Shown in pieces: positions 3,168 to 23,240 of a stretch of 24,109 bases of DNA. Numbering within the stretch: position 1 is the first letter of the stretch; every line of letters starts with the position of its first letter. Origin of the DNA: a virus. A model generated the notes under the pieces. The model ran no database searches, was not told the origin of the DNA, and saw nothing but the letters and a program-made list of their open reading frames with translations. The stretch is from positions 1 to 24,109 of IMG/VR virus record IMGVR_UViG_3300028388_000542; one strand, 5' to 3'. Made by a program: the position numbers and the translations under genes.

Positions 3168-3363
3168 AACAGAGGTCGAAGTATACTGCCCACCAATAGC
3201 AGAATATGACGATGCTTTTAATTATAAGCTACTAGATGAGATCGAGAGCCTACCGGATACATACGGCCATCCCGCCATTGTTGAAGCCCTTTCTGATTAC
3301 GCAGCGTTGAGAGATAAAATTCGCGCTTGCAAGAACGAGCGTGACAGACTCAAGGATAAATAG
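3097..3363 (+). CDS. Putative o-spanin lipoprotein (Rz1-like)
   Basis: The 88-residue protein has a lipoprotein signal peptide: MKLKIIS, a hydrophobic core (LVLVPIL) and lipobox LLTGC with the lipidated Cys at residue 18. The mature part is charged and predicted helical, with a CPP motif at residues 33-35. It begins inside the i-spanin gene in the +1 frame and extends 196 bases beyond it. A GAGAG-like ribosome site precedes ATG 3097. An earlier in-frame ATG at 2941 would bury the signal peptide 52 residues in, so 3097 is preferred. It would sit in the outer membrane and span the periplasm with the 2904-3167 product. Confidence 0.75.
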   Translation: MKLKIISLVLVPILLTGCANTAYKTEVEVYCPPIAEYDDAFNYKLLDEIESLPDTYGHPAIVEALSDYAALRDKIRACKNERDRLKDK

Positions 3364-5212: not shown

Positions 5213-5803
5213 ATGTCATTGACTAACCCAGCAAAAGCTGATGCACCGATCCCTGGCGAAAACTACACGTCAGATACACGGAACTACCCGTGGCACCGCC
5301 CACCAGATATAACCAATGTGGATGAGGCTATTGAGTATATTAGCACAAACCTAGTAGAGACTAATGATGGTATGCGCTACATGGCGATGCTTGATGTAGG
5401 CATTCCCGTATCTGCTGTAACCGACATGATCGTAACAATGGGTGTAGGTGACGGTAAGTTTACGGTTGATTTTGCTATTCTCATTGCAGGGCCGGTAGCC
5501 CGTTTGCTTACAGTGATGGCAAAGCAATACAACATCGACTACAACATGGGTCTTGAAACTGGTGAGATTGTTGTCACACCAGCATTTTTCCGTGCATATA
5601 TGGATCAAGGCGGGGATGAATCCGCCGCAGAACAGGCCGTGACAGAAGAAGCAGATGCAATTATAGCAGAAGGGATGGGTGAGGATACGCCAGTGGAAGA
5701 TGATGGCGGATTAATGGCCCCTGCACCACAAGACGAACAAAATGCGATGCTTGGTTATGACTCAGATGATAACAACGAGATAGAAGAGCAAATCGATGGC
5801 TAA
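5213..5803 (+). CDS. Hypothetical virion-region protein with acidic C-terminus
   Basis: This 196-residue protein begins MSLTNPAKADAPIPGENYTS, followed by DTRNYPWHRPPDI, a Trp/Pro/His-rich opening that I associate with proteins of uncharacterised marine phages, but I cannot name the family. The middle (about 60-130) is hydrophobic/amphipathic (DFAILIAGPVARLLTVM). The last 60 residues are strongly acidic. The start at 5213 is chosen over ATG 5189 because AAGAGGAG (5198-5205) is an excellent ribosome site seven bases upstream, whereas 5189 has none. It overlaps the next gene by eight bases. Position among virion genes suggests a structural or assembly role; no more can be said. Confidence 0.6.
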   Translation: MSLTNPAKADAPIPGENYTSDTRNYPWHRPPDITNVDEAIEYISTNLVETNDGMRYMAMLDVGIPVSAVTDMIVTMGVGDGKFTVDFAILIAGPVARLLTVMAKQYNIDYNMGLETGEIVVTPAFFRAYMDQGGDESAAEQAVTEEADAIIAEGMGEDTPVEDDGGLMAPAPQDEQNAMLGYDSDDNNEIEEQIDG

Positions 5804-7976
5804 TGGTTTTGACGACTTTGCAACGGGTTTTGCTTCTACCTTTGTTCCGACTTTTACTAAGTCGTATAACAAAGCAGAAGACCGCTATGATGATCGCATT
5901 AAAGAAAATGTTGTGACGTGGCGGGCAAACTATAAGACCTACCAAGAAACCGAAAAAGCAAACAAAAAAGCAGTAGAAACCGCAAAGCTATTTGTAAAGC
6001 AGTTTGGGCAGCCAGAAGGTTCCATAGCGGATGTTGCTGCTAACATTAAAGTATTGGGAGCAGATGCAACATTCAAGTTGTTGCAGAATGGTGCGTCGTT
6101 TAAATTAGATCAGAGCAGGTCAAAGACTTCCGTAACTACCCCAACCTCTGGTGACGCAAATCAACCTACAACATCAGATAGCGTCATTGAAGGAATGATC
6201 GCGCCTGTGAGCGGTAAGTTTCCTATTTCTTCTAAATTTGGCCCACGCAGGGCTCCGACTTCTGGTGCATCAGAGAACCACCAAGGTATTGACCTAGCCA
6301 CGCCAGAAGGTACGCCTATTCAGGCAGTTCTTGACGGTACTATTTCGCGTATGGGCTTCCAGGAGGGTGGCGCGGGTAATTACGTCGTCATTGATCACGG
6401 CAACGGCGTTGAAACGAAGTACTTACATTTGGCTGACCTCCCTAGCGACATAAAGCAAGGAGATGATGTAAAAAGAGGTCAAGTATTTGCCAAATCCGGC
6501 AACACCGGCATTAGCACCGGGCCACATCTAGACTTCCGTATTGTAAAAGACGGCAAAGCAATCGACCCAGAGTTCGTATTCAATAATCAGTCTACGGACG
6601 TTCGTACTGCGCCTGATGCAACCGTGCCTGTTGATTCACAGATGGGACAACTCGGCCTAGCAGACGATGCTACTCCGGAGGCCTCAGTAGAAAAGACAGG
6701 ATCTCCAGACACTGACGCCCAAACAGAAGAATCCTTCTTTGGCCGACTGCGGCGCGAGGCTGGTGAGAACTACGAAAGCAATATCCGCAGCGAAACAATT
6801 GCGCGTCTCGGCGTTAGTGAAGATGTGTATGACAAGGTTTTGGCCGGAACATACACGACTTCTGTAGAAGGAACCGGGCAGTATACTCTTCAGATGCCGC
6901 CGAAAAAACCAGATTATCAATCTGTGTACACATCTAGTGGTCAAATTCAGACATTCAACGTCGCAGAGGCATCCGGGCAACAGAAATACACCGCAGCGGT
7001 TAATAGCGGGGGAAACCCGATAGGAAAGCCAAAACTGTCCACAATTCTTAAAATGAATGAAGTCGATATTCCAGAAGTAAAGATGGAAACACTTTATAAT
7101 GCAGAAAACAATGAGTATGTTCAGGTTAATACTAAATCTGAGGAAGGGGTCAAACAACTTAATAATCTTGTGAGCGAGGGTTACATGAAAGTGTCTGCTC
7201 CTGACGCAGACGACCTAAATAAGACTGGACTGGATATCGATTTGCAAGATCTTACAACATTCGGCAAAGCGTATGCGGCCTCGCAAGATATTAAGTATAA
7301 GCAATCTATTGGTGAAGAAGTTCCTGAAACGCTTATTGTCGCTGTTGATGCGATCATGCAGGAACTAAATCCTGAAGATCTGAACAAGAAGCCGGACTTT
7401 GTATCGGTAAAAGTTGACTCAGGCCCAACTAGATATTTTGACCAGAATAACCCAGACGACGTTAAAAAGCTAAAACAACTGCGTGAAGATCTAGGGGAAG
7501 GCCAAACCTTGTTTATCGGTAACTTGACAACAGAATCTAAGGCTGACGAATTTGAGCCTCCAATTTGGAGTGGTACTGATAACAGCTACAAGTCAATCAA
7601 GCACCAAGCGGAGATGGCTAAAGGCGAGAATATACCAGCCTGTACAGTGCAGCACAAGGTAAAGGGCCGGATTCAGAAGAGGTCAAAGCGTTCAACGCAT
7701 TCAAGCAGAATACGCTTCCAGGATACCTTGAGATCTACCGCCAACTTAACCCGGATAAACCTCTCACGTTTGCCCAAGAACTCGCTAAACTCAATGAAAT
7801 GGAAGATGCGCCCTCGGGCACCTTTACTGATGATCAGATCGCAACACAAAGAACTAAAACCGATAATCTTCTTATGGCACAGACCGTTGAAGGAATTGCG
7901 GAAGACCAAGCGGGTAAACTCGTTCAAATTGTTAACCCAGATGACGGGCAATATATTGATGCAACACAGATTGTAG
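5796..7976 (+). CDS. Virion protein with M23 (LytM-type) peptidase domain, N-terminal part; frame lost near 7,620
   Basis: The frame codes for 726 residues, but only the first ~610 look genuine. Residues about 135-263 form an M23 metallopeptidase domain that cleaves peptide bridges in peptidoglycan: His162 and Asp166 in HQGIDLA, His211 in KYLHLAD, and His244-x-Asp246 in GPHLDFRI. The usual HxH zinc motif is therefore HxD. The N-terminus (about 1-110) is helical and charged; regions after 265 are unrecognised. Such a domain in a virion protein would open the cell wall during DNA entry. From about 7,630 this frame turns into basic, Ser/Arg-rich sequence (KGRIQKRSKRSTHSSR) typical of out-of-frame reading, while another frame becomes protein-like. 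The intact product would continue to 8920, about 1041 residues. Confidence 0.8.
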   Translation: MANGFDDFATGFASTFVPTFTKSYNKAEDRYDDRIKENVVTWRANYKTYQETEKANKKAVETAKLFVKQFGQPEGSIADVAANIKVLGADATFKLLQNGASFKLDQSRSKTSVTTPTSGDANQPTTSDSVIEGMIAPVSGKFPISSKFGPRRAPTSGASENHQGIDLATPEGTPIQAVLDGTISRMGFQEGGAGNYVVIDHGNGVETKYLHLADLPSDIKQGDDVKRGQVFAKSGNTGISTGPHLDFRIVKDGKAIDPEFVFNNQSTDVRTAPDATVPVDSQMGQLGLADDATPEASVEKTGSPDTDAQTEESFFGRLRREAGENYESNIRSETIARLGVSEDVYDKVLAGTYTTSVEGTGQYTLQMPPKKPDYQSVYTSSGQIQTFNVAEASGQQKYTAAVNSGGNPIGKPKLSTILKMNEVDIPEVKMETLYNAENNEYVQVNTKSEEGVKQLNNLVSEGYMKVSAPDADDLNKTGLDIDLQDLTTFGKAYAASQDIKYKQSIGEEVPETLIVAVDAIMQELNPEDLNKKPDFVSVKVDSGPTRYFDQNNPDDVKKLKQLREDLGEGQTLFIGNLTTESKADEFEPPIWSGTDNSYKSIKHQAEMAKGENIPACTVQHKVKGRIQKRSKRSTHSSRIRFQDTLRSTANLTRINLSRLPKNSLNSMKWKMRPRAPLLMIRSQHKELKPIIFLWHRPLKELRKTKRVNSFKLLTQMTGNILMQHRL
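7617..7798 (+). other. Frame junction and upstream coding sequence that lacks a start codon
   Basis: Up to about 7,628 the protein-like reading is in the frame of 5796 (SIKHQAEMAKGEN). From 7,622 the -1 frame opens directly after a TAA at 7619-7621 and reads EYTSLYSAAQGKGPDSEE, then FQ-free helical sequence through LNPDKPLTFAQELAKLNEM, joining without a break the frame starting at ATG 7799. Adding one base in GAGAATATACC (7626-7636) would give a continuous 1042-codon gene 5796-8920; the present length, 3125, is one short of a multiple of three. No canonical X-XXY-YYZ slippery heptamer is present at the junction, so a single-base loss (mutation or sequencing error) is more likely than programmed frameshifting. 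Confidence 0.75.
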
Positions 7977-8920
7977 GAACCGATGGCTCAATAGCCTTCA
8001 GATTAAGGGATGGGTCAACAGTCAGTGCTGCGAATAATTTCCGACCTGTGAGGGATAGTGAGATTGCTGACGCGGAAGCTGCCATATCATCTGGTAAACC
8101 CGCCCGCGAAAAATTTGCAAAAGATAGAGCAATGGTAGAGTCAGTTGTCACTCTCGGAGGAGAAATCGTTGAAATTGTTAACAATGACAAAAGGGCTTTG
8201 ACATTTACCGCTCGGAAGCTGGTTCCGGCTATTAAAAGCCTATTCCAAGAGGTAGACACAATTTCAAGCGTACTTGGATCTTATTTTACCGAAAATGGGT
8301 ATGACCCAAACAACCCAGCTACAATAACTGAAGATAAAATCACACTTGAGGGGGCCGAGAGTAGGTTACGTCAGGCGGGTATATTGCAGCCTGGTGAAAC
8401 CTTTGAGTCTCTCATCAATAGAGAAACAAGAGACCTTGCAAGTAAGGGACAGCAGCTAGAGGCTAAAGTCTTCCTAATGGCATTCCGTACGGGCGCGGTT
8501 GAGGGGCAATCTGGACAAGCGATGTCTAACCGAGACTTTGACCGGCTGCTCAAAATTATCGGCGACACCACTGATGAGGATACTTTCCGTGAGAAGATGA
8601 ACTCATACCTTGCTGGTTCCGTCGCTTCTCTGAATACACGGTTTGAAGATGTCAACGAGCCGGATCGTATCGACCTCTTTATAAAAAATTATGGGTATTC
8701 TCCACTACGAGGCGACGATTATGTAAGATCCTGGGAGTCTGTTTCTACAGATCCACGCAATACAGAACTTACACGGGCTATCCGTATTCTAGATCCGAAG
8801 ACTCCACCATTACCGGCGTACCAGTATCTCAAAGAAAATCCCGAAACCGCCGGGCAATTCGCCGAGGAATTTGGCGCGAAATATCTCCCGTATTCGATGA
8901 GAGGCACCTATGGAAACTGA
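7799..8920 (+). CDS. C-terminal part of the M23-containing virion protein
   Basis: From the first ATG this is 373 residues, but the frame codes convincingly from 7,622. ATG 7799 has no ribosome site and is unlikely to be a natural start. The sequence is soluble, acidic and helical, with no domain I recognise. It looks like the distal part of a large internal virion protein: repeated charged helices, TFREKMNSYLAGSVASLNTRFEDV, and LDPKTPPLPAYQYLKENPE near the end. It overlaps the next gene by 11 bases. It is best read as one gene with 5796-7976. If the break is real, it would be a separate polypeptide only if translation restarts. Confidence 0.65.
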   Translation: MEDAPSGTFTDDQIATQRTKTDNLLMAQTVEGIAEDQAGKLVQIVNPDDGQYIDATQIVGTDGSIAFRLRDGSTVSAANNFRPVRDSEIADAEAAISSGKPAREKFAKDRAMVESVVTLGGEIVEIVNNDKRALTFTARKLVPAIKSLFQEVDTISSVLGSYFTENGYDPNNPATITEDKITLEGAESRLRQAGILQPGETFESLINRETRDLASKGQQLEAKVFLMAFRTGAVEGQSGQAMSNRDFDRLLKIIGDTTDEDTFREKMNSYLAGSVASLNTRFEDVNEPDRIDLFIKNYGYSPLRGDDYVRSWESVSTDPRNTELTRAIRILDPKTPPLPAYQYLKENPETAGQFAEEFGAKYLPYSMRGTYGN

Positions 8921-11900
8921 AAATCCTTACAAGCAATTCCGCACGGACAATGTCACAGATTCTCCTACTAACACTGGGTCTGATCAAGTAAATCCATACT
9001 CGCAATTCAACAATACGCAGTCTTCCGACGATATGATGCCTGGTAACAATACTGCCAATACCGCCGAAGATGACAACCAAGAAGAACTGAAAAACAACCC
9101 TTTTCAATATCTCGACGACTTTGATTCAAAAGGCTTCACCGAAGCAGATTATGCAAAGGTAGAAGAGCGTGGTGGTCTTCCTAAACCTCAACTCAATATG
9201 TATAGTGATATTGATGTTGAAGGTGGCTTCATGGGTTTATCAAACCCGTTTGGTCAAGAAAGAAAGGATGCTTTTGAAAAAGCAATGAACCGATATAGGC
9301 TCTATGCCAACAACCCAGAGGCAACGCAAAACTTACTTACCGGGGAAGTTATATATAAGGGAACCCTCGTCCCGTTACCAAATCAAGGACTTCTTACTGG
9401 TGATATGGGTGTTGGTATCGGGCAAAAACTCGCGCTTGGTGTCCGCAATACCCCTTCTGTAATTCTTGAGGCTGGCGCATCTTTAGTGGATGTTGCTGCT
9501 AATGCTATTGAAAATAACATCCCGTTGGGTGCCGTAGAATACTTCGACGAGAACGGCGAATTTAATCCTAAATACATATCCGGTGAGGAATTAGCAAAAC
9601 GCCGGGAAGAAGACCCAAACTATATGACTTTAACCCCGGTGGCGCAGTCGGCGTTTGCTGATGTACCTAAAGGCGACGGTATCATCGACACTATTGCCGT
9701 CGAAGGCCCGTCTATGGTTACCGGATTCGGCGCAGGATTGAAGATAGCAAAGGCCGTTCCATTAATCGGTAAAAGTAAGATATTTCGCTTCTTAGGTGGC
9801 GAGGCCGGTATGACCGCCGGAACAAGTTCTGAGGCAGGCACACTTCTTATTGGCGAGAAGGCGATGCTGTCCGGCCTACAGGAAGACATTCCGTTCTTCC
9901 GGGGCATCGAAGCAGAGCCGGGTAGTGAAGAATACAACAAGGTACTTGCCGCTCGAACTAACATCCTTGTGGATGCAATTATGTTGGGTGGGGCAATCGA
10001 TACTACCATAAAAGCTATTAAAGGCAGCACCGTGCTAGCCTATAACCTTGTAGCAGGGCCAATTCTTGACCTCGTTAGCCCACCGGCGAAACAGGCGAGA
10101 CTGACAGAACAGATCCTAGACCGCCTGGCTGGTGTAACAGGCGACCCTGTGCGCGATGACGTGGCCCGTCGTGAAATCATTAGGCTTATAGAAGAAAATA
10201 AAGATGTGTTGATCGAGGTTCCCCCGGAGATGGGTAAGAACATTGAGTATGCAACTAGCACAATGGATGCTTTGGAGCGGGCGTTGGCGGATAACAACGA
10301 CGAACTTGCAATGAGGATCTTGAATGATGCTCGTTCTCTTCAAAAAGGTGCATTAAATAGCCCTGAATTATCCACGCTGCCCAACGTCGCCAACAAACCA
10401 AAGGCAAAGGCGGTAAATGTTCTCGAACAAACCGAAGAAGCCCTCGGGGGAAGTGACGCAATCGAAGAATCTGCGTCCGGGCTTCGTGCGTCAGGTAAAG
10501 CCGAGGTAGATGCTCTTACAGGCGAGGTAGATCGACTTAGCGCGGAACTTGAATCTCTTGGGGAAGACTTGGCTTCCCGTCTTAGAGACGATCCAGAACT
10601 TGGGGCTCAGATCGATGGCCTTGAACAAGCAAGTGGCATTTCAATCTACAAAGGCCCCGAGCAATCTTCGACAGAGATCGTTAGTAATGTTCGTGCAGCG
10701 TATGAATCAATGACCGCTACTAAGGACGAATTGTTCAATGCGGTTGAGGGCGGGGTTGTTGAAGCAGACACACTTATTAATGTCATGGATGGCCTTGGCC
10801 CAGATGATGCACTTGATGCGTCAATATCTGCGATGCCCGGCACGACTCAAATCCGTGAACTTATTCGTGTTACACGAAAACAAAGGGTTCCTGAATTGGA
10901 TGAGGCGGGTAAACAAGTCTTAAACGACTCTGGGCAGCCAGCAACTCGTCTTGAAACCGACGACGAACTGTCAGATCGTGTTACTGAATATATATCCGAA
11001 AATGGCCTTGATTATGGCCGTTTATACAAAGACATCAGGCCACTTACATCCCAGGCTGCAAACGATTTATTCGCGGGCACAGGTGCCGAGAAAGCAGCCG
11101 GGCGTAAATTGAGAATGTTTGTGCAAGAAATTGATGGCCGCTTCCTTGATGATGTGGCTAACTCGGGGGATGAGGGCGTAGCAGACGCCGCTACAAAGGC
11201 CCTGAATTACTACCGTACACAATATGCTCCATTCTTCCGCGATGGGCCTGGGGGCCAATTTGCAGAAGTGTATGAAAGCACAGTAGGTAGAACCTCTACT
11301 GCTATGGCAGACGAGGGGGTTGAGATCGGGTCTACAGATTTCAAGAGCAAGGCCCGCAAAATCGTTGAGAATGCACTACAGGATAGTGAGTTCGAGTTTG
11401 GCAACCAGATTATTGATATTGTAGCCCGTCCTGAAGGCGGAAGCAATGTCGGCCTTGTAACAGACTACTTTATAGCAAATGCTTTGAAAAAATTGTCTGG
11501 TAGAATTGATGAGGCAGTCGCTAATGGTAAGGGCCTTGATTCCGTTAACTATACTGACATCAGAAACGCCCTAGAGGGGTATAAAGGGCTATTGCAAGGT
11601 CGTGAAGAATTCGCCGACCAGGTTACACGACTAGACACGCTAGTCGATAATCTAAAGACCGGTAAGTTGCAAAGTAATGAATTGCAGACTGAATTAATAA
11701 CCGCAAAGGAAGCCGCAGAAGAGGCTAAAGTACGCATTCTTGATAATGAACTCGGTGTGTTCTTTAAGAAGCAGGGCATTGACGCCCCGAACGCATACGA
11801 ATCATTCCGCCAATTACTGACTAGCCCGCAGTCCGCCGACACGTTACAAAGCCTTGTAGACCGGGCTAAAGCAAGCGATAACCCGATAATCTTAGAGGGT

Positions 11901-12563
11901 ATGCAAGCGGCCTATATGCGGTTTATAAGAAGTCCCAGTGGGTTTATTGGTACAGCAACCGAATCTGGTGGTGCGAGAAACATACTTGTTCGCAACCAAC
12001 AGCTTGCTAAAGACCAGATTAAGCCGATTCTTGAGTACGGGGATATTATCTTTCAAGACCGGCCAGAGATTATGGAAGCAACGACGGCCATCCTGCGTGA
12101 AGCGGGTTTAGTGTCGAAGTCACAAGCGACTAGGTCGATCCGGGTTGGTAGTGACACCGCATTTAATAAAGAGGCAATGGAGGCGGTTAACCGGTTCGTG
12201 ATGTTCACTATGGGGCCATTGAGCCGTGGGGGTGCCCGCCTTAGAGCCGGTACCGCAGGGGCGATAAACAGGTTAGTAGATCCTACTGAGGCGAACCGAA
12301 TGCTCGACAAATTGTATTCAGACCCCAATGAATTCGTCCGTGTTGCAAAAATTGTTGCTGGTAGAAAATCGCCACCGGATAAAGAGAAAGCAAAGGCTCT
12401 TCGTATTTTCTTAATACGGTCACAAATCTACAGCGAAGATAATGCCCCTTCCGAAACCGATTTGCTTACGGCACTTAGTGATGCCGAGTTTGCCTTCCGG
12501 GACATTCGTAACACCACAAGGGACGCTGTGGACAACCAAATGAACCAAATACTCAGCCCATAA
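8910..12563 (+). CDS. Large internal virion / DNA-ejection-type protein
   Basis: The protein has 1217 residues, the largest in the window. The N-terminus has two copies of the NPYxQF motif (residues about 5-10 and 28-33), which I know from N-termini of large podovirus internal virion proteins. Then come an Asn/Asp-rich linker, a conserved-looking block, and amphipathic, Gly/Ala-rich segments (about 255-400, such as MVTGFGAGLKIAKAVPLIG and ILVDAIMLGGAIDTTIKAI) that could traverse membranes. The remaining 800 residues are mostly charged helices with coiled-coil stretches (about 525-570). No lysozyme or transglycosylase catalytic motif is evident; the wall-cutting domain is in the upstream M23 protein. 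Size and last position in the late block fit a T7 gp16-like role in genome ejection, which is inference. GAGAGG lies five bases before the ATG. Confidence 0.62.
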   Translation: METENPYKQFRTDNVTDSPTNTGSDQVNPYSQFNNTQSSDDMMPGNNTANTAEDDNQEELKNNPFQYLDDFDSKGFTEADYAKVEERGGLPKPQLNMYSDIDVEGGFMGLSNPFGQERKDAFEKAMNRYRLYANNPEATQNLLTGEVIYKGTLVPLPNQGLLTGDMGVGIGQKLALGVRNTPSVILEAGASLVDVAANAIENNIPLGAVEYFDENGEFNPKYISGEELAKRREEDPNYMTLTPVAQSAFADVPKGDGIIDTIAVEGPSMVTGFGAGLKIAKAVPLIGKSKIFRFLGGEAGMTAGTSSEAGTLLIGEKAMLSGLQEDIPFFRGIEAEPGSEEYNKVLAARTNILVDAIMLGGAIDTTIKAIKGSTVLAYNLVAGPILDLVSPPAKQARLTEQILDRLAGVTGDPVRDDVARREIIRLIEENKDVLIEVPPEMGKNIEYATSTMDALERALADNNDELAMRILNDARSLQKGALNSPELSTLPNVANKPKAKAVNVLEQTEEALGGSDAIEESASGLRASGKAEVDALTGEVDRLSAELESLGEDLASRLRDDPELGAQIDGLEQASGISIYKGPEQSSTEIVSNVRAAYESMTATKDELFNAVEGGVVEADTLINVMDGLGPDDALDASISAMPGTTQIRELIRVTRKQRVPELDEAGKQVLNDSGQPATRLETDDELSDRVTEYISENGLDYGRLYKDIRPLTSQAANDLFAGTGAEKAAGRKLRMFVQEIDGRFLDDVANSGDEGVADAATKALNYYRTQYAPFFRDGPGGQFAEVYESTVGRTSTAMADEGVEIGSTDFKSKARKIVENALQDSEFEFGNQIIDIVARPEGGSNVGLVTDYFIANALKKLSGRIDEAVANGKGLDSVNYTDIRNALEGYKGLLQGREEFADQVTRLDTLVDNLKTGKLQSNELQTELITAKEAAEEAKVRILDNELGVFFKKQGIDAPNAYESFRQLLTSPQSADTLQSLVDRAKASDNPIILEGMQAAYMRFIRSPSGFIGTATESGGARNILVRNQQLAKDQIKPILEYGDIIFQDRPEIMEATTAILREAGLVSKSQATRSIRVGSDTAFNKEAMEAVNRFVMFTMGPLSRGGARLRAGTAGAINRLVDPTEANRMLDKLYSDPNEFVRVAKIVAGRKSPPDKEKAKALRIFLIRSQIYSEDNAPSETDLLTALSDAEFAFRDIRNTTRDAVDNQMNQILSP

Positions 12564-12649: not shown

Positions 12650-12913
12650 TTACATATCAGAAGCCTCGGTGTCAACATCTGACTCCGGGGTTTTTTCGTT
12701 TTTGGCATTCTCAGTTGCCTCATTCTTTTTCTCGAACAGGCTCATTTCAAACACTGACTTATTAAGCAACCAATGCATCATTGGAATGTTGTTCAAAGAA
12801 CTAGACATAATGTAATTCCCGTCATTGTCGAAACCAACGACTAGGCAGCTTTGAAGGGTTCCTTTGAGCCCATTAAGGATCTCATCAGTCTTTTGTGTAT
12901 TTTCCGTGGTCAT
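12650..12913 (-). CDS. Hypothetical small acidic phage protein
   Basis: The protein has 87 residues, family not named. Residues about 18-55 form a compact block (LQSCLVVGFDNDGNYIMSSS, then IPMMHWLLNKSVFEMSLF) resembling short proteins I associate with T7-like and marine phages, with a beta-hairpin-like VGFDNDGNY and a helix containing HWLLNK. The C-terminal 30 residues are Glu/Asp/Lys-rich and probably disordered; their codons also carry the plus-strand terminator. AAGGAG lies six bases before the ATG, an excellent ribosome site. It is the last gene of the minus-strand block. Confidence 0.72.
   Translation of the reverse strand: MTTENTQKTDEILNGLKGTLQSCLVVGFDNDGNYIMSSSLNNIPMMHWLLNKSVFEMSLFEKKNEATENAKNEKTPESDVDTEASDM
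12661..12697 (+). terminator. Intrinsic terminator for the plus-strand late block, inside an opposing gene
   Basis: The stem CCUCGG (12664-12669) pairs with CCGGGG (12685-12690). One U-U mismatch is followed by GUCA/UGAC (12671-12674 with 12680-12683; four pairs) and a five-base ACATC loop. The hairpin is followed by six T (12691-12696), then CGTTTTT. The preceding AAG can pair with the first T residues. It is the better of the two terminators here. It lies about 100 bases past the large virion gene and within codons near the 3' end of the minus-strand gene 12,650-12,913. Confidence 0.8.
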
Positions 12914-12935: not shown

Positions 12936-13109
12936 TCATGCGGTTTTAAGTTTGTTTGAGAAGTATGCAGAATTAAATCCACGCTCCCACTCTCGATGGA
13001 GAACCGAGGTCTTCTTATAGGGGCTCGTAAAAATACCCTTTAAGAATGCCCGCTTCCCCATCTCGAATGCTTCTTCGGTAGGTTGCTTTTTGCTAGTGCT
13101 TCCACCCAT
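12936..13109 (-). CDS. Ribosome modulation factor (RMF)-like small protein
   Basis: A 57-residue protein starting MGGSTSKKQPTEEAFEMGKR. Its pattern matches RMF, which dimerises ribosomes into inactive 100S particles in stationary cells: A14, G18, A21, G25 at the same spacing as in E. coli RMF (A12, G16, A19, G23), then PY (30-31), W41, G44-F45 and A48, against E. coli PY (30-31), W40, G43-W44 and A47. The length is also close (RMF is 55). AAAGGTG precedes the ATG by about five bases, and the gene starts 10 bases after the ribonucleotide reductase stop, so it belongs to the same operon. The comparison uses the E. coli sequence from memory. Function in the phage is inferred: it could modulate or bind host ribosomes during infection, or be an RMF-fold protein with another job. 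Confidence 0.68.
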   Translation of the reverse strand: MGGSTSKKQPTEEAFEMGKRAFLKGIFTSPYKKTSVLHREWERGFNSAYFSNKLKTA

Positions 13110-13119
13110 CAGAACACCT

Positions 13120-15033
13120 TTAGTTTGAGATATCTACCACCTCACAAACCGAGCCAGTACATGCCAGGGTCTGTGAAGACACGGTATTATCAGTATGCTC
13201 ATACTCCGAAAGCTTAGACCAATCGATCTTTTCAGGCATCGAATTAAGCATCTCTTCATACTGCTCAAAAGTGCAGTCTTGGTACGGGGCCTGTCGGTAT
13301 GTATGATCAGAAAACGGCAAGAAACTAATTCCGCTAATCTCATCAAAATGTTTGTACACCCAGGCACCTACGGCCAACCATTCGTCATCCTTGACGCTGA
13401 TTGTGACGCTCGGCTTGTGTTCACACCACTCACGCTGGTAAATCAACCACAATTCAAGCTGCTCAATTGCAGACTTATCATGACGACATATCGCACCATC
13501 GGGGGCCTTCTTGGGGAAGCTGAAGACGGTTGTGCTGTTAGGGTTCATGACATCGTCTTCCGCAGGTATTCCGCTGTCGATCATGAATTGAGTAAGCGCA
13601 TCTTTCTTATCTCCGCGCACTGTGCGGATATACTGCGGGTTGTGTCGTGTATGAATGCCACTAGCTGCATCAACAAGCTGAGATACTGTACCCGAAGGCT
13701 TAACGCATGTAATCGAGGCACTTACTGGAATACCTAGCAACTCTGCATATTTTGCATTAGTATCAACCGATACCTGTCGCATTGTGTTAAGCCACCGCGC
13801 ACTGTCCGTTGTCTTAGAAAGCACGTTATGATCCATAATGCCGGTTAATGACACGCCTAGCAGACGCTCTTCTTCCGTATTCTTCTTCCAGATCTTACGA
13901 AGATATGGCATGTGCGTCAGAGTACTCTGGATCGTACCAATGATTGTCGCAATTCGCACCTTGCGAGTAAGATCGTCAAGATCATCCGATTCACGAACGA
14001 CAACTTCCGACAGGTTACAGAACTGATATGGGCGTAACACGATCTCTGAACATGGGTTAGTGCCCCACTCAAAACCGTCCTCCCGGCGTTCGTTTTTCTT
14101 AACCTGATTGTTGGCAGCCTCACGGTTGAAGATACCGCGCTCACCCGACTTAGATTCGACCAAGGACAGCCACTCGCGCATGAAGGTTTCCATATCAGGG
14201 CGTTCATTATACACGGCACTGTTATTGGCAAGCCCGCGCTGTGCGTTATTCTCCCACCACTGACCGGATTTAGCATGACGCATACGGTCATCTTGTAGAT
14301 CTGACAGGCTAATCATGGCGCTGCGGCGAACACCGCCAGAGACAACGACTTCGCCGATCTTACACATGATGTCGTGACACTCTAGGCTATTCAGTCTGCG
14401 CCCCGCCGCCGCTTGAAACGCCTTAATGGTAAACTTGAATAGGTCGTCTAAGGGCCCTGGGCCACTCGCACGTCCCCCAAATGTCTTTAGGCGGGCTCCT
14501 GCCGGTCTGACACGCGACAGGTTATACTGAGGGATCTCACCGGAGTATAAGAGCGCAATAAGCTGGCGTAGTGCTTTTGCCCACCCTTCCTTACTATCCT
14601 TAACCATGATTGTGGTGTCGCTATTGAACAATTCATCAGGGATCTCAGGAAGCTTCTTAGTGTATTTATGCTCAACGCTAAAGCCCACGCCTGTACCACA
14701 CAAAAGAATAAACATAGCTTCATCAAATGCTTTAGGATCGTCGATGGGCAAGAAGCTACAATTATACCCTGCCGTGTTGTCACGGGCCAAGGCTGGGCCC
14801 GCTGTCATCAACGCCCGCATCGATGGCATAACTTCAAAATTAAAAACAGCCGCCCGGATCTCTTCCCAATCAATTTTGTCGGACACGTCTTCGTTTAGTT
14901 TACCGCGCATAAAATCAACATAGCGATCAACAGTTTCATGCCACTTCTCTCGGCGGCCTTCGGATTCAATCCATCGAGCATACCGAGAGGTGTAAATGAA
15001 TTCTTCATAGTCTGAAGGAAATATATTAGACAT
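13120..15033 (-). CDS. nrdJ: Class II (adenosylcobalamin-dependent) ribonucleotide reductase, monomeric type
   Basis: This 637-residue enzyme reduces ribonucleotides to deoxyribonucleotides with a cobalamin-generated thiyl radical. Seen: Cys92 in YNCSF and Cys339 in QFCNLSE (active-site redox pair), Cys328 in NPCSEI (radical Cys, with Asn326 and Glu330), the KPSGTVSQL substrate-binding loop, and the C-terminal CTGSVC pair (Cys625, Cys630) that is re-reduced by thioredoxin. All five expected cysteines of the Lactobacillus-type monomeric enzyme are present. No small subunit or activase gene is nearby, as expected for class II. ATG 15,033 is chosen because GAGGT lies five bases upstream; an in-frame ATG at 15,069 would overlap the oxygenase gene. 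The host must supply B12 or the phage depends on B12-replete cells. It provides dNTPs for the replication genes upstream. Confidence 0.95.
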   Translation of the reverse strand: MSNIFPSDYEEFIYTSRYARWIESEGRREKWHETVDRYVDFMRGKLNEDVSDKIDWEEIRAAVFNFEVMPSMRALMTAGPALARDNTAGYNCSFLPIDDPKAFDEAMFILLCGTGVGFSVEHKYTKKLPEIPDELFNSDTTIMVKDSKEGWAKALRQLIALLYSGEIPQYNLSRVRPAGARLKTFGGRASGPGPLDDLFKFTIKAFQAAAGRRLNSLECHDIMCKIGEVVVSGGVRRSAMISLSDLQDDRMRHAKSGQWWENNAQRGLANNSAVYNERPDMETFMREWLSLVESKSGERGIFNREAANNQVKKNERREDGFEWGTNPCSEIVLRPYQFCNLSEVVVRESDDLDDLTRKVRIATIIGTIQSTLTHMPYLRKIWKKNTEEERLLGVSLTGIMDHNVLSKTTDSARWLNTMRQVSVDTNAKYAELLGIPVSASITCVKPSGTVSQLVDAASGIHTRHNPQYIRTVRGDKKDALTQFMIDSGIPAEDDVMNPNSTTVFSFPKKAPDGAICRHDKSAIEQLELWLIYQREWCEHKPSVTISVKDDEWLAVGAWVYKHFDEISGISFLPFSDHTYRQAPYQDCTFEQYEEMLNSMPEKIDWSKLSEYEHTDNTVSSQTLACTGSVCEVVDISN

Positions 15034-15035
15034 TT

Positions 15036-15611
15036 TTACCTCAATGGTTCTATGCCGTGGAACCAACACACGATTGACTTACGACGACCCCACCAAACTG
15101 GCATGGCGACGTGGTTCAAATGGCTTGGAAAAAGGATAAGTTTACCACGAGTCTTTGATGCTCGATTGAAACCTTTCCCACGGCAAGTTGGTGAAAGACC
15201 CTCTATTTTAAGCGAACCGCCTATATAATCTTTAGGGTCGGAGAGTTGGACAACAGCAGTTAGTTTTCTAGTTGCAACTAAATCGTCGCTGCTGTCCGTA
15301 TGGTGGCCGTAGTATTGGCCAATTCCATATTCAAGATACTGAAGATGTTCCATCTCGCCATCGAGCAGGAACCTAAAAGAGCGAATATTTATTTCACGAA
15401 CAGTGTTGTTAATAGCCTCGAAAATCCATTTCGTATCCAAGGTGGGCGCAAACCACTTAACATCCGAGTTTCGTGCAAAGTTACGGCCAACGCTTTTGCC
15501 ATTACTTAGGACTGAGCCACCAAGCATTTGGAAACTGTTAGAGATATCAACGATACGCTCACAATCGTTGTAATCAAATAAATCATACTCCAAAAACTGC
15601 TGGATATGCAT
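15036..15611 (-). CDS. 2OG-Fe(II) oxygenase, prolyl-4-hydroxylase-like
   Basis: The 191-residue protein has the double-stranded beta-helix signature of 2-oxoglutarate/Fe(II) dioxygenases: YGIGQYYGHHTDSSDD gives the HxD iron motif (His104, Asp106), RKLTAVVQLSDPKDYIGGSL is the central strand pair typical of the P4H/PiuC group, and FPSHLNHVAMPVWWGRR gives the distal iron His (His167) and the 2OG-binding Arg (176/177). It is a short, stand-alone catalytic domain without a signal peptide, thus cytoplasmic. AAAGGA precedes the ATG by about eight bases. Its stop is three bases before the reductase start. The substrate is unknown; phage members of this family are candidates for hydroxylating proteins or modified bases. 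Confidence 0.88.
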   Translation of the reverse strand: MHIQQFLEYDLFDYNDCERIVDISNSFQMLGGSVLSNGKSVGRNFARNSDVKWFAPTLDTKWIFEAINNTVREINIRSFRFLLDGEMEHLQYLEYGIGQYYGHHTDSSDDLVATRKLTAVVQLSDPKDYIGGSLKIEGLSPTCRGKGFNRASKTRGKLILFPSHLNHVAMPVWWGRRKSIVCWFHGIEPLR

Positions 15612-17540: not shown

Positions 17541-18392
17541 TTATTGGTCGTCTTCTAGGTCGCTTTCAAGTGATGCAACGCTAACAGCATCAATTGCATC
17601 CGCAGTATCATCCGTGAAATTGCGCTTACGAAGTGCATTCTGGTAGGCTCGGTCAATCTCTTTGTTTTCTTGATCGATCTGCTCTGCCATTACTCGCATG
17701 GTGTCGAGTGTGTCTTGGTCTAGTGTAACAAGATTTACAAAGTCAGGTTCAAAGTGCCACACGGGGTAATATACTTGTCCGTTCTTCTTCTCTTCAAAAG
17801 TTACGGTAATGTTAAATTCATAGAATTTCTTCGAGCGTGGCATCTTCTTGATAACCTCGTCCTCAAATCCCATGAAGTTTGCACCCTTGAGAATAAACAA
17901 AGCTGGTTGGTTCTCGATAGTAATTTCATCACCTCCGGCAGTATGGCCGGTATATGAAACCAAGCACCGAATCTGGCGCTGACATTTGATGTTTTCAAAT
18001 TTCTTCTGCTCTGCCTCTGGCATTTCCCGCAAAACCTTACTGATTGGCTTACCACAGCGGGTTGAGCCTAAACGGTCTCGTGCTTCATCCTGAAGACGGT
18101 TAACAAGAATCGTTTTGTTACGAGTGTTTTCGTTCTCAGGGTCATATTCGACCCACTGAAATTTCTGGCTTAAAACTCGAATTGAAATTGTCTCTGCATA
18201 AACAGGATCTTCTTGACCTTCGATGTAAAGATTCATGTAGAAGTCGCCCAAGTTCCGTCCTTGGTCGTCCTTTCTATCCATGCAATATTTTACTCGTGGA
18301 AGAAGATTGTTGTTTTCGGTGGTATCGCTTGTACCAAGCATCCGAGCAAGTTCAAGTTCGGCTGCTTTATCGATTACTGCTAATTCTGACAT
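17541..18392 (-). CDS. Putative single-stranded DNA-binding protein
   Basis: The 283-residue protein is assigned by position and shape. It lies between DNA polymerase and the two nucleases and has a strongly acidic C-terminal tail (SLESDLEDDQ), the feature by which SSBs and T7 gp2.5 contact polymerase and helicase. The core (about 30-235) is beta-rich with many aromatics (LGDFYMNLYIEG, KFQWVEYDPEN, KKFYEFNITVTFEE, YYPVWHFEPDF), plausible for an OB-like fold. Four cysteines (37, and a CGKP plus CQRQIRC group about 112-143) might bind metal, which is speculative. AGAGGA lies about seven bases before the ATG. A putative promoter lies just upstream (18,423-18,452), which would fit the high copy number needed. 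Confidence 0.6.
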   Translation of the reverse strand: MSELAVIDKAAELELARMLGTSDTTENNNLLPRVKYCMDRKDDQGRNLGDFYMNLYIEGQEDPVYAETISIRVLSQKFQWVEYDPENENTRNKTILVNRLQDEARDRLGSTRCGKPISKVLREMPEAEQKKFENIKCQRQIRCLVSYTGHTAGGDEITIENQPALFILKGANFMGFEDEVIKKMPRSKKFYEFNITVTFEEKKNGQVYYPVWHFEPDFVNLVTLDQDTLDTMRVMAEQIDQENKEIDRAYQNALRKRNFTDDTADAIDAVSVASLESDLEDDQ

Positions 18393-18422
18393 AGGATTTT
18401 CCTCTAAGTTAGTTAGGCTACT

Positions 18423-18452
18423 GTTATACCATCTTCATGATGCTTCAGTCAA
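18423..18452 (-). promoter_or_regulatory. Putative sigma70-like promoter before the SSB-like gene
   Basis: On the minus strand TTGACT (18,452-18,447) and TATAAC (18,428-18,423) are separated by 18 bases, five of six consensus bases each. The -35 box overlaps the stop codon of the DNA polymerase gene. Predicted transcription would start near 18,415, about 23 bases before ATG 18,392, leaving room for the AGAGGA ribosome site. Activity is inferred. Confidence 0.5.
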
Positions 18453-20613
18453 TCGGAATCTCTGTTTGTTCCATCCAGTTTGGGCCACTAGTCATCTCGA
18501 TGTCTAATGGCAGTATCATCTTGTAATTAAAACGTTTTTCTATCTCCTCACTGATATCACGCATTGCCCAAGATAATATACTTTTGACGGTTTGTTCCTC
18601 CCCTGGAAACACATCTACAACAATACTGTCATGCACCGTTATAATAAGACGTGATTTGCATTCATTTTCCTTAAAGCCGCGTAAGGCACGAACGCAAGAC
18701 AAGACAACAATATCAGCAGTTGCAAAAGATTGCACCGGATAATTTACCACTTGTGTTGCATTACTGATTCTACCATTACCAATCCTTTTTGGATTCTCCC
18801 AGAAAAACTCGCGTCCGGATGGTGTCCTTACAATGCCGTCCGCCATAACTCCGTCCATCAGCTTTTTGTGCCACTTTCGGAGCCCCTTGTAGATGTTGAA
18901 GTATTCTCGGAAGTATTGCTGAACGTGGGGCGGTTCATTAGCCCCCATGCCGCCGTACAACGGGGCGAAGGTATATGCTTTCGCCGCCTGACGCATTTCC
19001 TTGGTGACATCAGATACCTCGCAACGGTTGATGATTACTGCTGTCTGTTTGTGGACATCCTTGCCGTGCAAGATATCCTCAATGATCTGTTCATCTTGGC
19101 TTAATTCCCCGGCAACTCGAAATTCAAGTCCTGAAAAGTCTGCCTCAAGAATAGTACCACCATCAAAGCGCGAAACAACACACTTCCTTACGGGAAACTT
19201 ATTGCCCTTTGGTTGATTCTGGAAATTTGGGTTGCTGCTTGATAATCGCCCAGTTTTTGTCATGCACTGATTAAATTGAGCATGAAGAAAGCCGTCAGGC
19301 CGAGTCCACAGTTGAATATTTTTAATGAACGAATCAAGATATGTACTAATCGCTTGTAGGCGAGTAAACTTAGTCAAAAAAGAAACAGCAAGTAAGTTGT
19401 CCTTACGCTTGGCTTGATCAAGCAATATCTTAATCGTGTTCTTATCAACCTTAAATCCGTTAACGCTTACATCCATTGCCCGTTCAGGGACAAGCTTTAG
19501 GCCCGCTGTTTTACCTGTTATCTGGTAAATGAAACCACGGCCATCACACTCCCTACACTTTGTTTGCAGCTTGTAAGGGGTGCCGTCTTTCTTAAACTTT
19601 TGCACCTTTCCTGTTCCTTCACATGTGGTGCAATGGTTCGCAATTGTCTTCTTCATGACCTTCGTGGTCTTTCGGATCGCATTGGTAAACTGCCCAGGGG
19701 TCATCTTCGGAGGCATCTTCTTCCTGCCACTAGGATAACTGCCGATGTTGAAAACCTCACAGTGATAATCCCGGTCGGGTACATAACGGCTATACACCAC
19801 CTTACTCATGTCAGCACCTGAGTTCAAGTTTATCGGGGTATCCCCCATGATTTCTTCGACGATCTCTTTCAAGTCATGTTCAATCTGTTTCTTTTCATTA
19901 ACATATTCTTTCTCGACTGTCGAAAGAACGTCCAAGTCTATACATATTCCATTACGCTCAATTTCACATAAGAATAAGAGCATGTCATTCATTAGATCAA
20001 AGACCGGATTAAGCCCTTTATTAGAATCCTTCAAAAGATCCTTTTTCTGATCGATGAAGATCTCGGCACAAGATAAAACATCAGCATCGGCATATTCGAC
20101 AACAGTATCGAGGGGCATTGCCTCGAAACCAGTACCAGACTTAAATAAGTCGTCCACGAGATCTGATTTTTTACGGTGTACATCGCGTCGTTCGGCAGTG
20201 TTCTTGAGCGACTTTGACCGTCCCTGGGCTCGATCAAGTATGTATTCACCGATCATAGTACACCATACTTTTGGCGGTAGAGGTATATTTGCCTCTTCGC
20301 AGTACAGCCAGTCAAACTTCGCGTTGTGAGCAACTCCCAGTAAACATCGCTCCACATCTAAAATAAAAGGCCCAAGGCTGTCGGGAGTATCAACTTCATT
20401 GTGAAATAGGACACAATGTTTGACAGGCCCCGGTTTGCCATTTTCAATAACAAGCCAATGGACACTTACAATTTTGTTTTTAGGATTAAACGGGCTGTTA
20501 TCAATTACCCTGTCCCACCGATCAACTGTGGTTTCAAGGTCAAAAACCAAAACAGGAGATTTATGCAACATATCGGCTGATGGGGGCATCGATGTTGCAG
20601 ATAATGGTTCCAT
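18445..20613 (-). CDS. Family A DNA polymerase with 3'-5' exonuclease and inserted DnaJ-type zinc domain
   Basis: Replicative polymerase, 722 residues from ATG 20,613, chosen because AGGA lies a few bases upstream; ATG 20,676 would lie deeper in the helicase gene and ATG 20,571 has no ribosome site. Exonuclease motifs: FDLETT (Asp25, Glu27), HNAKFDW (Asp101), YADADV (Asp178). Polymerase motifs: A, DFSGLEFR (Asp492); B, RQAAKAYTFAPLYGG (Arg541, Lys545, Phe549, Tyr553); C, VHDS (Asp662). Phe549 is at the position of E. coli Pol I Phe762. Between the two parts, residues 328-361 carry CTTCEGTG and CRECDGRG (Cys328, 331, 353, 356), two DnaJ-type CxxCxGxG repeats 21 residues apart. I recall this fusion from phage HMO-2011. 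It overlaps the helicase gene by 53 bases. Confidence 0.95.
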   Translation of the reverse strand: MEPLSATSMPPSADMLHKSPVLVFDLETTVDRWDRVIDNSPFNPKNKIVSVHWLVIENGKPGPVKHCVLFHNEVDTPDSLGPFILDVERCLLGVAHNAKFDWLYCEEANIPLPPKVWCTMIGEYILDRAQGRSKSLKNTAERRDVHRKKSDLVDDLFKSGTGFEAMPLDTVVEYADADVLSCAEIFIDQKKDLLKDSNKGLNPVFDLMNDMLLFLCEIERNGICIDLDVLSTVEKEYVNEKKQIEHDLKEIVEEIMGDTPINLNSGADMSKVVYSRYVPDRDYHCEVFNIGSYPSGRKKMPPKMTPGQFTNAIRKTTKVMKKTIANHCTTCEGTGKVQKFKKDGTPYKLQTKCRECDGRGFIYQITGKTAGLKLVPERAMDVSVNGFKVDKNTIKILLDQAKRKDNLLAVSFLTKFTRLQAISTYLDSFIKNIQLWTRPDGFLHAQFNQCMTKTGRLSSSNPNFQNQPKGNKFPVRKCVVSRFDGGTILEADFSGLEFRVAGELSQDEQIIEDILHGKDVHKQTAVIINRCEVSDVTKEMRQAAKAYTFAPLYGGMGANEPPHVQQYFREYFNIYKGLRKWHKKLMDGVMADGIVRTPSGREFFWENPKRIGNGRISNATQVVNYPVQSFATADIVVLSCVRALRGFKENECKSRLIITVHDSIVVDVFPGEEQTVKSILSWAMRDISEEIEKRFNYKMILPLDIEMTSGPNWMEQTEIPID

Positions 20614-21784
20614 GCCATCCTGTAAGTTTATTCTTGCCGACGGTAAGGTATCTGGTTGGATCTGGTTCACTATCATCTATATCCCCTTGTTCGTGTTTAC
20701 CTATTCCAATTATTAAATCGCTTTCTGCGGCTTTACCAATTTTACTTCCTTCCATATCAAAAGGAGATAGGCGAGTGCTGCCCCGGGCTTCATTACTAGC
20801 CTGACTGACCCCAATAAGCGCAACGTCATACTTCTTACTTATTTCTCTAAGCCTTCGATACAGTTCACGAAGACGTTCATGACTACTGTTAAAGCTGCCA
20901 TTAAGGTTGATCTTATCTGCCTGGTCGATGATAACAACACCGGGCCTCACCCTATCGATCAGGGCTTGATACTGCTCAATATCCCACTCTTGCGTCTGAT
21001 ACATAATAAACTTATCAGATATCTTACTGAACTGTCGAACGGCTTCGTCCGGGTTTTTCATGATCTGATCTTTTGTCATACCACAATACGATTGATGGGC
21101 GCGAAGTTTTGTCCATGTACCCTTTTCTTCATTACCGAGATATAGGACGGTAGCGCCTTGCTCACAGAACCCACCAGGGCCACAAGAAATGCTTACCAAG
21201 AAAGCGGTTTTACCCGTCTCTGGGACAGCAAACACCACACCAAACTCACCACGACCAATGCCGTATACCCGGCGAGATAGTGTCTCGATGTTAAACTTAA
21301 ATCTGTTTTTATCGCTAACATCTTCAAGGATTAACGAAAGGTCATCGGTGACTGGCTCACCAAAATCATAATTGGTAAGGTCTTCTTCGTTTTGCTCGAT
21401 CAGCTTCCGGATCTTGTTGAGTGCGGTTGGGCTACCTTCACTAAAATCGACTGAAAGATTGGCGAGGCGTGTTCCGAGGTCACGTCGATATAGTTGCTGA
21501 ATTGCATCATCAGCCACGTCATGATTAATCGGTTCAGCTTGATCAATCATCCGAATAAGTTCGGCTGTATCTGTTATCTCAGCGTTAGTTGCGACAGGGT
21601 TCTGTGCCAACCATAGCGTTTCAAGTTCGGCAGCACTTAGATCATGCCCAAACTTATCATGTGCTTTTGCAAGAATTTTGAAGATCTGGTGAAAGTCTTG
21701 CCCGAATAAGCCGGGTGTTAGCTGGTGCTTAACCTCATTGAAGAAGTCATGACGCATCAGCGCCTTGATTATATTTTTGTCCAT
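20561..21784 (-). CDS. DnaB-like replicative helicase
   Basis: The 407-residue protein has an N-terminal helical domain (about 1-140) and a RecA-like DnaB C-terminal domain. Seen: Walker A AVPETGKT (about 186-193; the first Gly of GxxxxGKT is Ala), the catalytic-Glu strand TVLYLGNEE, Walker B VVIIDQADK (Asp287), GVSQASNEARG (motif 3-like), GSKIGKAAESDLIIGI, and GKNKLTGWHGT near the end. No zinc or TOPRIM domain is fused; primase is a separate gene just upstream, unlike T7 gp4. ATG 21,784 is chosen since AGGGA lies about eight bases upstream; an ATG at 21,814 lacks one. It would unwind DNA ahead of the family A polymerase. Confidence 0.92.
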   Translation of the reverse strand: MDKNIIKALMRHDFFNEVKHQLTPGLFGQDFHQIFKILAKAHDKFGHDLSAAELETLWLAQNPVATNAEITDTAELIRMIDQAEPINHDVADDAIQQLYRRDLGTRLANLSVDFSEGSPTALNKIRKLIEQNEEDLTNYDFGEPVTDDLSLILEDVSDKNRFKFNIETLSRRVYGIGRGEFGVVFAVPETGKTAFLVSISCGPGGFCEQGATVLYLGNEEKGTWTKLRAHQSYCGMTKDQIMKNPDEAVRQFSKISDKFIMYQTQEWDIEQYQALIDRVRPGVVIIDQADKINLNGSFNSSHERLRELYRRLREISKKYDVALIGVSQASNEARGSTRLSPFDMEGSKIGKAAESDLIIGIGKHEQGDIDDSEPDPTRYLTVGKNKLTGWHGTIICNIDAPISRYVA

Positions 21785-21835: not shown

Positions 21836-22624
21836 CTAGCTGTTTTTTTGGTGGAGAATCTCGGAGATCATGCTAGCCCCGAAGTTCTTGAGATCATTAG
21901 GTAAAAATACAATTGTGGTTGGAACCAACGACCGCATCCGTTGCATTAACTTTAATCCGACAGTGTTGGCATCTTTGTCGAGGGCAATTGTTAAGTTGCT
22001 GAAGCGCATTAACTGTTGCTTTTGGAGCGGGCTTATGTTGGTGCCAAGCAAAGCCACGCCGGTCAATGTACCGGTAGCCGCAACCGCACAGGCGCTTGCT
22101 GCATCCTCCACGACAACAGCATGACTATGATTACCTACAGCAAGAATTCCGGATGTATCACCATATGACATCCACTTTGGTTTTGCATCCCCCAGGTGTC
22201 GGCCAACTGCCCCAAGCCCATCGTTCATGAAAAACATGACACGATTGTCCGCCGGGTTATATCGGATTCTGACTAAACCAGACTCGAAGGCCTTCATGCA
22301 ATTTGTACGGCATATGTAGTCTATAGCTACAGGGTGATTGCGCGGGTCTGACACGACCTCGGGTAACGGTCTAGTTCGCTTAATAACCGCATTTCGTTTT
22401 CCTGTAAGCTTGTCTTTTATTTCAGTGTGGCTGAAGCCGGAGCGAACAGCCCCTTTCGACCCACAACTTGCACGATAGCAATTCCAGATGGTAACCCCAT
22501 CACGCTTTGATATTGTGAACTTCTTAGTGCCACCACAGAAGGGGCAGTCTAGGGTCTTGCTCGACCCCTCTTCAATTTTGATTGTGTTGATGAAGTCACG
22601 CTGCTCACGAATTATTGGCTTCAT
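21836..22624 (-). CDS. DNA primase: zinc-binding and TOPRIM domains
   Basis: This 262-residue protein makes RNA primers. The N-terminal zinc finger is CPFCGG (Cys27, Cys30) and WNCYRASCG (Cys49, Cys54), as in T7 gp4-type primases. A TOPRIM domain follows: VVVEDAASACAVAATG (Glu173), then NLTIALDKDAN (Asp216, Asp218), the Glu and DxD metal ligands. There is no helicase domain, and the next gene supplies it. GAGAG is placed about four bases before the ATG. Its start overlaps the upstream oxygenase gene by 20 bases, and 51 bases separate it from the helicase start. That gap holds a short inverted repeat (GTATG-GAA-CATAC, 21,804-21,816) with no assigned function. Confidence 0.92.
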   Translation of the reverse strand: MKPIIREQRDFINTIKIEEGSSKTLDCPFCGGTKKFTISKRDGVTIWNCYRASCGSKGAVRSGFSHTEIKDKLTGKRNAVIKRTRPLPEVVSDPRNHPVAIDYICRTNCMKAFESGLVRIRYNPADNRVMFFMNDGLGAVGRHLGDAKPKWMSYGDTSGILAVGNHSHAVVVEDAASACAVAATGTLTGVALLGTNISPLQKQQLMRFSNLTIALDKDANTVGLKLMQRMRSLVPTTIVFLPNDLKNFGASMISEILHQKNS

Positions 22625-23240
22625 AATTCTCTCGCAACCACGCCTCTGTTCTTATAGCTGAATCATATTCGTCATCGTCCATTGTGCAAGGGGCTGGATC
22701 GTCTTGCAACATCTCAATGACGCTATCATATTCAAGCATTGTCGAAAGCGTCAGACTTATCCGTTTATCTGCCGGTTTGGTCAGGGGTCGAACACTATGT
22801 GTCTTTGTAACATCAAGCACATAAATGTCGCCTGTCTCAGCCACGAACGAAGCCTCGTCATCGACGTCTTTGAAGTTATACACGACCCCATCAGTCTGTG
22901 TATTTAATTGAAATGCGGGGGCATCTTCTTTAATATTATGAAATGTTGTAACGTAATTTCCCGCGTCAACATAAAAGTTAATTGCGGTGGCTGTGTTGCT
23001 GTCGGTATGAGGATTAACTCGGGCGTTAATTGACATCACACTGATGTTAAAAAGATGACTTACCTCGTCGGGGAGCAAATCGATAAGATCAAAGTATTTA
23101 TCGAGGTGCAGGGCCGATGGCTTGGAGTATTTAATGCCTTTGAACTCTAAGTTTTTTGTGTAGCCATATTTGATTATGTCATCTAACACCGCAGGGACAG
23201 GCGCACCAAGAATGCGGCGGTTAAGTTTCTTGAAGTACAT
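22605..23240 (-). CDS. Second 2OG-Fe(II)-type oxygenase (cupin/DSBH fold)
   Basis: The 211-residue protein has INARVNPHTDSNTATAINFYV (broken here after NFYV), giving an HxD motif (His78, Asp80), and GDIYVLDVTKTHSVRPL with a distal His148, followed by KRISLTLS with Arg160: the iron triad and 2OG-binding Arg arrangement of non-haem Fe(II) oxygenases. It is not closely similar to the 15,036-15,611 oxygenase; the spacing and surrounding residues look more like the aspartyl/asparaginyl hydroxylase or phage cupin-type groups. The acidic C-terminal 40 residues (DDPAPCTMDDDEYDSAIR) are outside the fold. AAGGAG is six bases before the ATG. The substrate is unknown; its place next to primase suggests a DNA-, nucleotide- or protein-modifying role in early infection. 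Confidence 0.7.
   Translation of the reverse strand: MYFKKLNRRILGAPVPAVLDDIIKYGYTKNLEFKGIKYSKPSALHLDKYFDLIDLLPDEVSHLFNISVMSINARVNPHTDSNTATAINFYVDAGNYVTTFHNIKEDAPAFQLNTQTDGVVYNFKDVDDEASFVAETGDIYVLDVTKTHSVRPLTKPADKRISLTLSTMLEYDSVIEMLQDDPAPCTMDDDEYDSAIRTEAWLRENYEANNS

Follow-up and report, generated by a model that had tools for sequence, protein, structure and literature searches.

The stretch of viral DNA analysed here (the window; 24,109 nt, positions 1 to 24,109 of IMG/VR record IMGVR_UViG_3300028388_000542) carries a genuine gene under selection, which encodes a small basic protein with the predicted fold of ribosome modulation factor (RMF), distant homology to the Rmf/CrpP superfamily and a conserved genomic place, and which may act on the small ribosomal subunit of its host. 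In bacteria, RMF brings ribosomes into a dormant state (hibernation). The position and length of this 57-aa ORF, hereafter the RMF-fold gene (Table 1), had been given correctly in the initial annotation, which lacked its strand: the gene is read from the minus strand, and the plus strand contains stop codons in the same interval. The encoded protein (MGGSTSKKQPTEEAFEMGKRAFLKGIFTSPYKKTSVLHREWERGFNSAYFSNKLKTA) has a net charge of +6 and a pI of 10.0, and its ATG is preceded by an AGGTG ribosome-binding site at a spacing of 5 nt. Only 10 bp separate it from the upstream class II ribonucleotide reductase (RNR) gene, which starts with ATG at 15033 or GTG at 15069, while the downstream gene is 48% identical to gp18 of CRP-212, likewise located downstream of the RMF-fold gene in that phage. 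The 1217-aa gene on the opposite strand faces the end of the replication-side operon, and this convergent junction recurs in relatives.

Table 1. Features of the 24,109 nt window
Feature	Position	Strand	Remarks
RMF-fold gene	12936..13109	-	57 aa; ATG at 13109, stop ends at 12936
Ribosome-binding site AAAGGTG	13115..13121	-	overlaps RNR stop codon
Class II (B12-dependent) RNR gene	13120..15069	-	directly upstream of RMF-fold gene; PF02867, PF17975, PF21995
Downstream neighbour	12650..12913	-	87 aa, function unknown (phrog_11040)
Convergent gene	8910..12563	+	1217 aa
Family A DNA polymerase with DnaJ central-domain insertion	18445-20676		PF00476 and PF00684
2OG-Fe(II) oxygenase	15036-15611	-	PF13640
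Second protein, oxygenase-like by eye	22605-23240	-	
Frame with LytM/M23-like stretch	5796-7976	+	726 aa
Next frame	7799-8920	+	
Endolysin	2128-2904		
Probable spanin pair	2904-3363	+	

Several other features of the window were noted in passing. The RNR gene is immediately preceded by a 2OG-Fe(II) oxygenase gene, and a further protein was judged oxygenase-like by eye. The tail of the 726-aa frame looks out-of-frame past approximately position 7630, and this frame overlaps the following one by approximately 178 nt, probably reflecting a frameshift, either a sequence error or programmed. Beside the endolysin there is a probable overlapping spanin pair, consisting of an 87-aa inner-membrane-type protein and a lipoprotein in the other frame with the lipobox LLTGC.

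HMO-2011-type phages are one of the most abundant phage groups of the ocean, and the window can be assigned to this group as a fragment of a marine podophage, since it encodes a polymerase with the DnaJ insertion and its nearest polymerases are those of CRP-3, CRP-212 and CRP-235 (54-57% identity). This polymerase architecture is the hallmark that defines the group (PMC9038755), of which the isolates have Roseobacter RCA strains and SAR116 as hosts (PMC6918029). The RMF-fold gene was detected in 6/11 HMO-2011-type isolates (CRP-212, CRP-3, CRP-235, CRP-345, CRP-1 and HMO-2011), and it is an accessory gene, as neither the family profile nor Pfam RMF matched anything in the five remaining isolates that have this polymerase. 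The expectation that such a short gene would easily be missed in annotation was correct, with the ORF being unannotated in the deposited records of CRP-3, CRP-212 and CRP-235.

The sole Pfam match of the window protein was RMF (PF04957; E 0.0014, 19.1 bits versus a curated cut-off of 27.9), the same ORF was the sole RMF match in a six-frame search of the window (E 1.1e-4), and the sole NCBIfam match was Rmf/CrpP (E 0.15, 11.6 bits versus a cut-off of 28). The HMM similarity predicted in the initial annotation was therefore recovered as a weak but repeated signal, present in 26 of the 39 family members, which stayed below the Pfam cut-off in all relatives from the records searched (best 22 bits). 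The NCBIfam Rmf/CrpP model NF041886 was matched by 12/39 members, and the best E-values of the family against NF041886 and NF041887 were only 0.0019 and 0.035. Comparison of the family profile with a broad Rmf/CrpP profile using hhalign gave a probability of 91.6% and a score of 32.6, which was reached by none of 400 column-shuffled controls (maximum 19.1); this broad profile was made of PF04957 matches from bacterial genomes, some of them sub-threshold, with the cores cut by a motif pattern. The match to a narrow gammaproteobacterial RMF profile was borderline (score 20.3, exceeded by 1/150 column shuffles), and against all PDB sequences two RMF entries ranked first and second with weak E-values (0.16 and 0.28). 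Searching the phage records by tblastn with E. coli RMF and two bacterial Rmf-like proteins gave no matches, so that the tie to RMF rests on profiles and structure, and PHROGs returned weak matches of unknown function only. Matches to P63C (PF10546) in 14 members were set aside as partial helix matches, as they covered approximately 28/93 profile positions and were absent from the window protein. A distant kinship of the phage family to the Rmf/CrpP superfamily is thus supported.

The AlphaFold2 model of the window protein (mean pLDDT 88.6) contains two helices, spanning residues 10-24 and 36-56, with TSPY in the loop between them, a predicted fold that corresponds to the two helices and connecting loop of the RMF structures 2jrm, 6h4n and 9iot. 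As had been anticipated, solved RMF chains were its best structural match, with 2jrm and 9iot ranking first and second in a Foldseek search of the PDB (E 0.7 and 2.0), and three RMF entries reaching Z-scores of 7.5, 7.1 and 6.3 in VIA, versus 5.0 for the best non-RMF chain. A longer family member was modelled separately, for which VIA again placed RMF first (Z 5.7 and 5.5, next 3.2) and Foldseek ranked RMF third by E-value and top by probability. Hairpins of two helices occur commonly, and Z-scores under 8 may reflect such frequent arrangements.

The RMF-like residue spacing described in the initial annotation is present at near-identical positions, with A14, G18, A21, G25, P30-Y31, W41, G44-F45 and A48 of the window protein corresponding to A12, G16, A19, G23, P30-Y31, W40, G43-W44 and A47 of E. 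coli RMF. Within this set, A14 and A21 vary across the family (31/39 members have Q in place of A14) and are weak evidence, leaving the G/G/P/W/G/A positions as the robust part of the match; RMF residues G16, G23, P30, W40 and G43 are retained in 39, 38, 37, 39 and 39 of the 39 members, respectively. Mutagenesis of E. coli RMF showed that G16, C29, W40 and W44 are required for ribosome binding, which is abolished by C29A and W44A, and that R3, K5, R11, G23, P30, G43 and R45 are necessary for ribosome pairing but dispensable for binding, with the authors placing G16, G23, P30, W40 and G43 in helix packing and the loop (PMC8126665). In the phage family, the C29 position is occupied by S or N (C once), the W44 position by F or Y (mainly F), and the R11 position by I, V, F, E and others but never Arg, while R45, which contacts the anti-Shine-Dalgarno sequence and functions in dimerisation, is represented by N in 35/39 members (N, D or S overall). 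The basic N-terminal segment, comparable to R3 and K5 of RMF, contains K7 and K8 in the window protein and 6-8 basic residues in most relatives, and is not alignable by position. Thus, the scaffold is retained and the contact surface looks rewritten. The identification as RMF did not hold up: judged by its sequence, the phage family is not RMF proper, because it falls below every curated cut-off, has C29, W44, R45 and R11 replaced family-wide, and has gained the residues H38, R39, E40, E42 and R43 around the Trp, which are near-invariant in the family (HRE-W-ER motif).

Relatives of the window protein are encoded by 74 other viral contigs and, counting four isolates, number at least 78; almost all of them occupy the same position following RNR, and a few further contigs came from a second scan. 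The family shares the motif G-x3-F-x2-G...P[YF]...HREWERGFN-AY, with G18, F22, G25, P30, W41, R43, G44, F45 and A48 of the window protein being conserved, and many start codons are preceded by ribosome-binding sites such as AAGGAG. Pairwise dN/dS of the family core had a median of 0.15 (48 pairs with usable divergence), with higher values of up to 1.17 in a few distant pairs, and the family is under purifying selection. These relatives and this selection, along with the sole Pfam match and the AGGTG site, indicate that the resemblance is more than chance, and similarity to RMF was found by HMM as well as by structure. No bacterial copy was detected in the GTDB genomes scanned with the family profile.

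The gene context was counted over 79 loci: the window itself plus its relatives in 74 contigs and four isolates, with many of the contigs being fragments. RNR homologues were located upstream in at least 71/79 loci, DUF3310 was present in 78/79, and a convergent structural gene followed in at least 55/79. A MazG gene was detected in 58/79 loci, and in most of these it touches or overlaps the RMF-fold gene at its 3′ end; the RMF-fold gene is retained with or without adjacent MazG. The earlier placement in a nucleotide-metabolism operon was supported. The arrangement suggests that the RMF-fold gene and MazG overlap and may be translationally coupled in MazG-bearing relatives; in L036, L018 and most others of these, the start of the MazG match precedes the RMF-fold stop codon by approximately 19-58 nt. 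The slot after RNR looks like an accessory-gene hotspot, since CRP-603, which has no detectable copy of the RMF-fold gene, has glutaredoxin and PhoH genes there (L249, record positions 18067-20026).

A clear RMF was found in none of 385 genomes of the Alphaproteobacteria, the host class of the relatives, where the best match scored 38.9 bits compared with 63-82 bits for canonical RMFs elsewhere in the phylum, and any RMF-like match over the cut-off was present in 6/385; genomes were placed in the class via the alpha_tmRNA match of G012. An RMF-dependent pathway is therefore not expected in these hosts, and a protein acting exactly like RMF would lack its usual pathway. Phage-encoded HPF was not found in 12 phage records.

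The explanation that we favour, tentatively and at a level somewhat short of probable, is that this basic protein of the RMF fold binds the small ribosomal subunit of the host, or another RNA, and tunes translation while leaving ribosomes unpaired. The product would be a small basic member of the Rmf/CrpP superfamily with helices packed through conserved glycines and aromatics and a P[YF] loop, encoded by an accessory gene that closes the replication and nucleotide operon of HMO-2011-type phages, and probably made together with RNR (in many relatives also MazG) during phage DNA replication. It would then bind structured RNA, most likely the 3′ region of 16S rRNA in the small subunit, like RMF, and either modulate translation initiation or protect 30S or 70S particles, with the HRE-W-ER surface as its own contact site. 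Pairing of the RMF type would be absent, since Asn takes the place of R45, the residue that contacts the anti-Shine-Dalgarno sequence. Against this explanation, two binding residues of RMF (C29 and W44) are changed and R11 is lost, and the structural Z-scores are middling for a common type of hairpin, next to the borderline match to the narrow RMF profile. Several phage genes in the window also have good Shine-Dalgarno sites, and blocking the anti-Shine-Dalgarno sequence would therefore harm the phage too. The chief rival, which we consider possible but rather unlikely, leaves the ribosome untouched and has the hairpin re-used as a small partner or regulator of the neighbouring nucleotide enzymes RNR and MazG, or as some other nucleic-acid-binding protein. 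Glutaredoxin is a known RNR reductant, and its presence with PhoH in the CRP-603 slot agrees with such re-use, as do the position directly after RNR or against MazG in most relatives and the replacement of several ribosome-contact residues alongside the new, near-invariant HRE-W-ER. However, a slot that may hold RMF-like, MazG, glutaredoxin or PhoH genes makes adjacency weak evidence of partnership, and the gene is kept whether MazG is adjacent or not.

A genuine hibernation factor, which with host HPF would make ribosomes pair or stall (100S or 70S) and so shut down or preserve translation, is improbable: the predicted RMF fold and structural residues are in its favour, as is the ability of E. 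coli RMF to bind ribosomes without R45 or R11, but complete dimer formation depends on R45, the binding residues C29 and W44 are changed, no clear RMF was found in the genomes of the host class, and the phage records searched showed no HPF gene. We give still less credence to a host-takeover or anti-defence protein that merely uses a small helical fold; a short, diverging accessory gene found in part of the isolates would suit it, but the near-invariant core and fixed position fit a constant intracellular target better than an arms-race gene. Chance resemblance of an unrelated two-helix phage protein, compatible with single-sequence scores that are all under the curated cut-offs and with the modest Z-scores, is very improbable, because independent tests agree: HMM matches recur in diverged members, the profile-profile score beats all 400 shuffles, and VIA ranks RMF first for two different models.

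A bolder form of the favoured ribosomal explanation, which we regard as unlikely, is that abundant ocean phages carry a ribosome-binding RMF derivative that acts in RMF-less hosts via the new HRE-W-ER surface, biasing 30S initiation or guarding ribosomes from decay during replication. A phage RMF-fold protein in alphaproteobacterial hosts would offer a way for viruses to control ribosomes that can be tested directly; phage-encoded bS21, bL12 and HPF were previously reported (PMC6375957). Even with another function, the family adds a conserved gene that was unannotated in three sequenced isolates.

Compared with known systems, the phage family shares with RMF (PF04957; E. coli and Vibrio; PDB 6h4n, 9iot, 4v8g and 2jrm) a length of 55-57 aa, a basic character (charge +6 in the phage protein, +7 in RMF), two helices, the P-Y loop, the glycines at 16, 23 and 43 and Trp40, and differs in its sub-threshold score, the residue replacements and HRE-W-ER motif described above, and its location in a phage operon rather than as a chromosomal gene of bacteria. 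The superfamily motif G-x6-G...PY...W-x2-G-aromatic is shared with NF041886 (Rmf/CrpP) and NF041887 (phage Rmf/CrpP fold protein), from which the HMO-2011 group differs by the low score of the window protein and as a distinct subfamily with HREWERGFN. Among bacteria, the nearest sequences seen were rare frames of 59-73 aa in alphaproteobacterial genomes (L201, L202, L214 and L215) with the shared motif NP[YF]...R-N-[ED]-W-F-x-G-Y-D, which are possibly the bacterial counterpart of the phage family. Two candidates from other phages were rejected, as the anti-CBASS sponge Acb4, whose paper mentions hibernation proteins, has a different, dsRBD-like alpha-beta fold, and the TayeBlu 'hibernation factor' was likened in its source to a different, newly described family. 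Small RMF-domain proteins are annotated in Agrobacterium phage Milano (PMC6588377) and Caulobacter phage CcrBL9, which also infect Alphaproteobacteria; neither was among the tblastn matches of the family in phage records, no functional test of these two proteins was found, and the literature searched contained no functional study of any phage RMF-like protein. Phage proteins with the RMF/CrpP fold are thus already recognised (NF041887, Milano and CcrBL9), and the HMO-2011 subfamily, which has the HREWERGFN motif and lacks some of the RMF contact residues, is a distinct variant among them.
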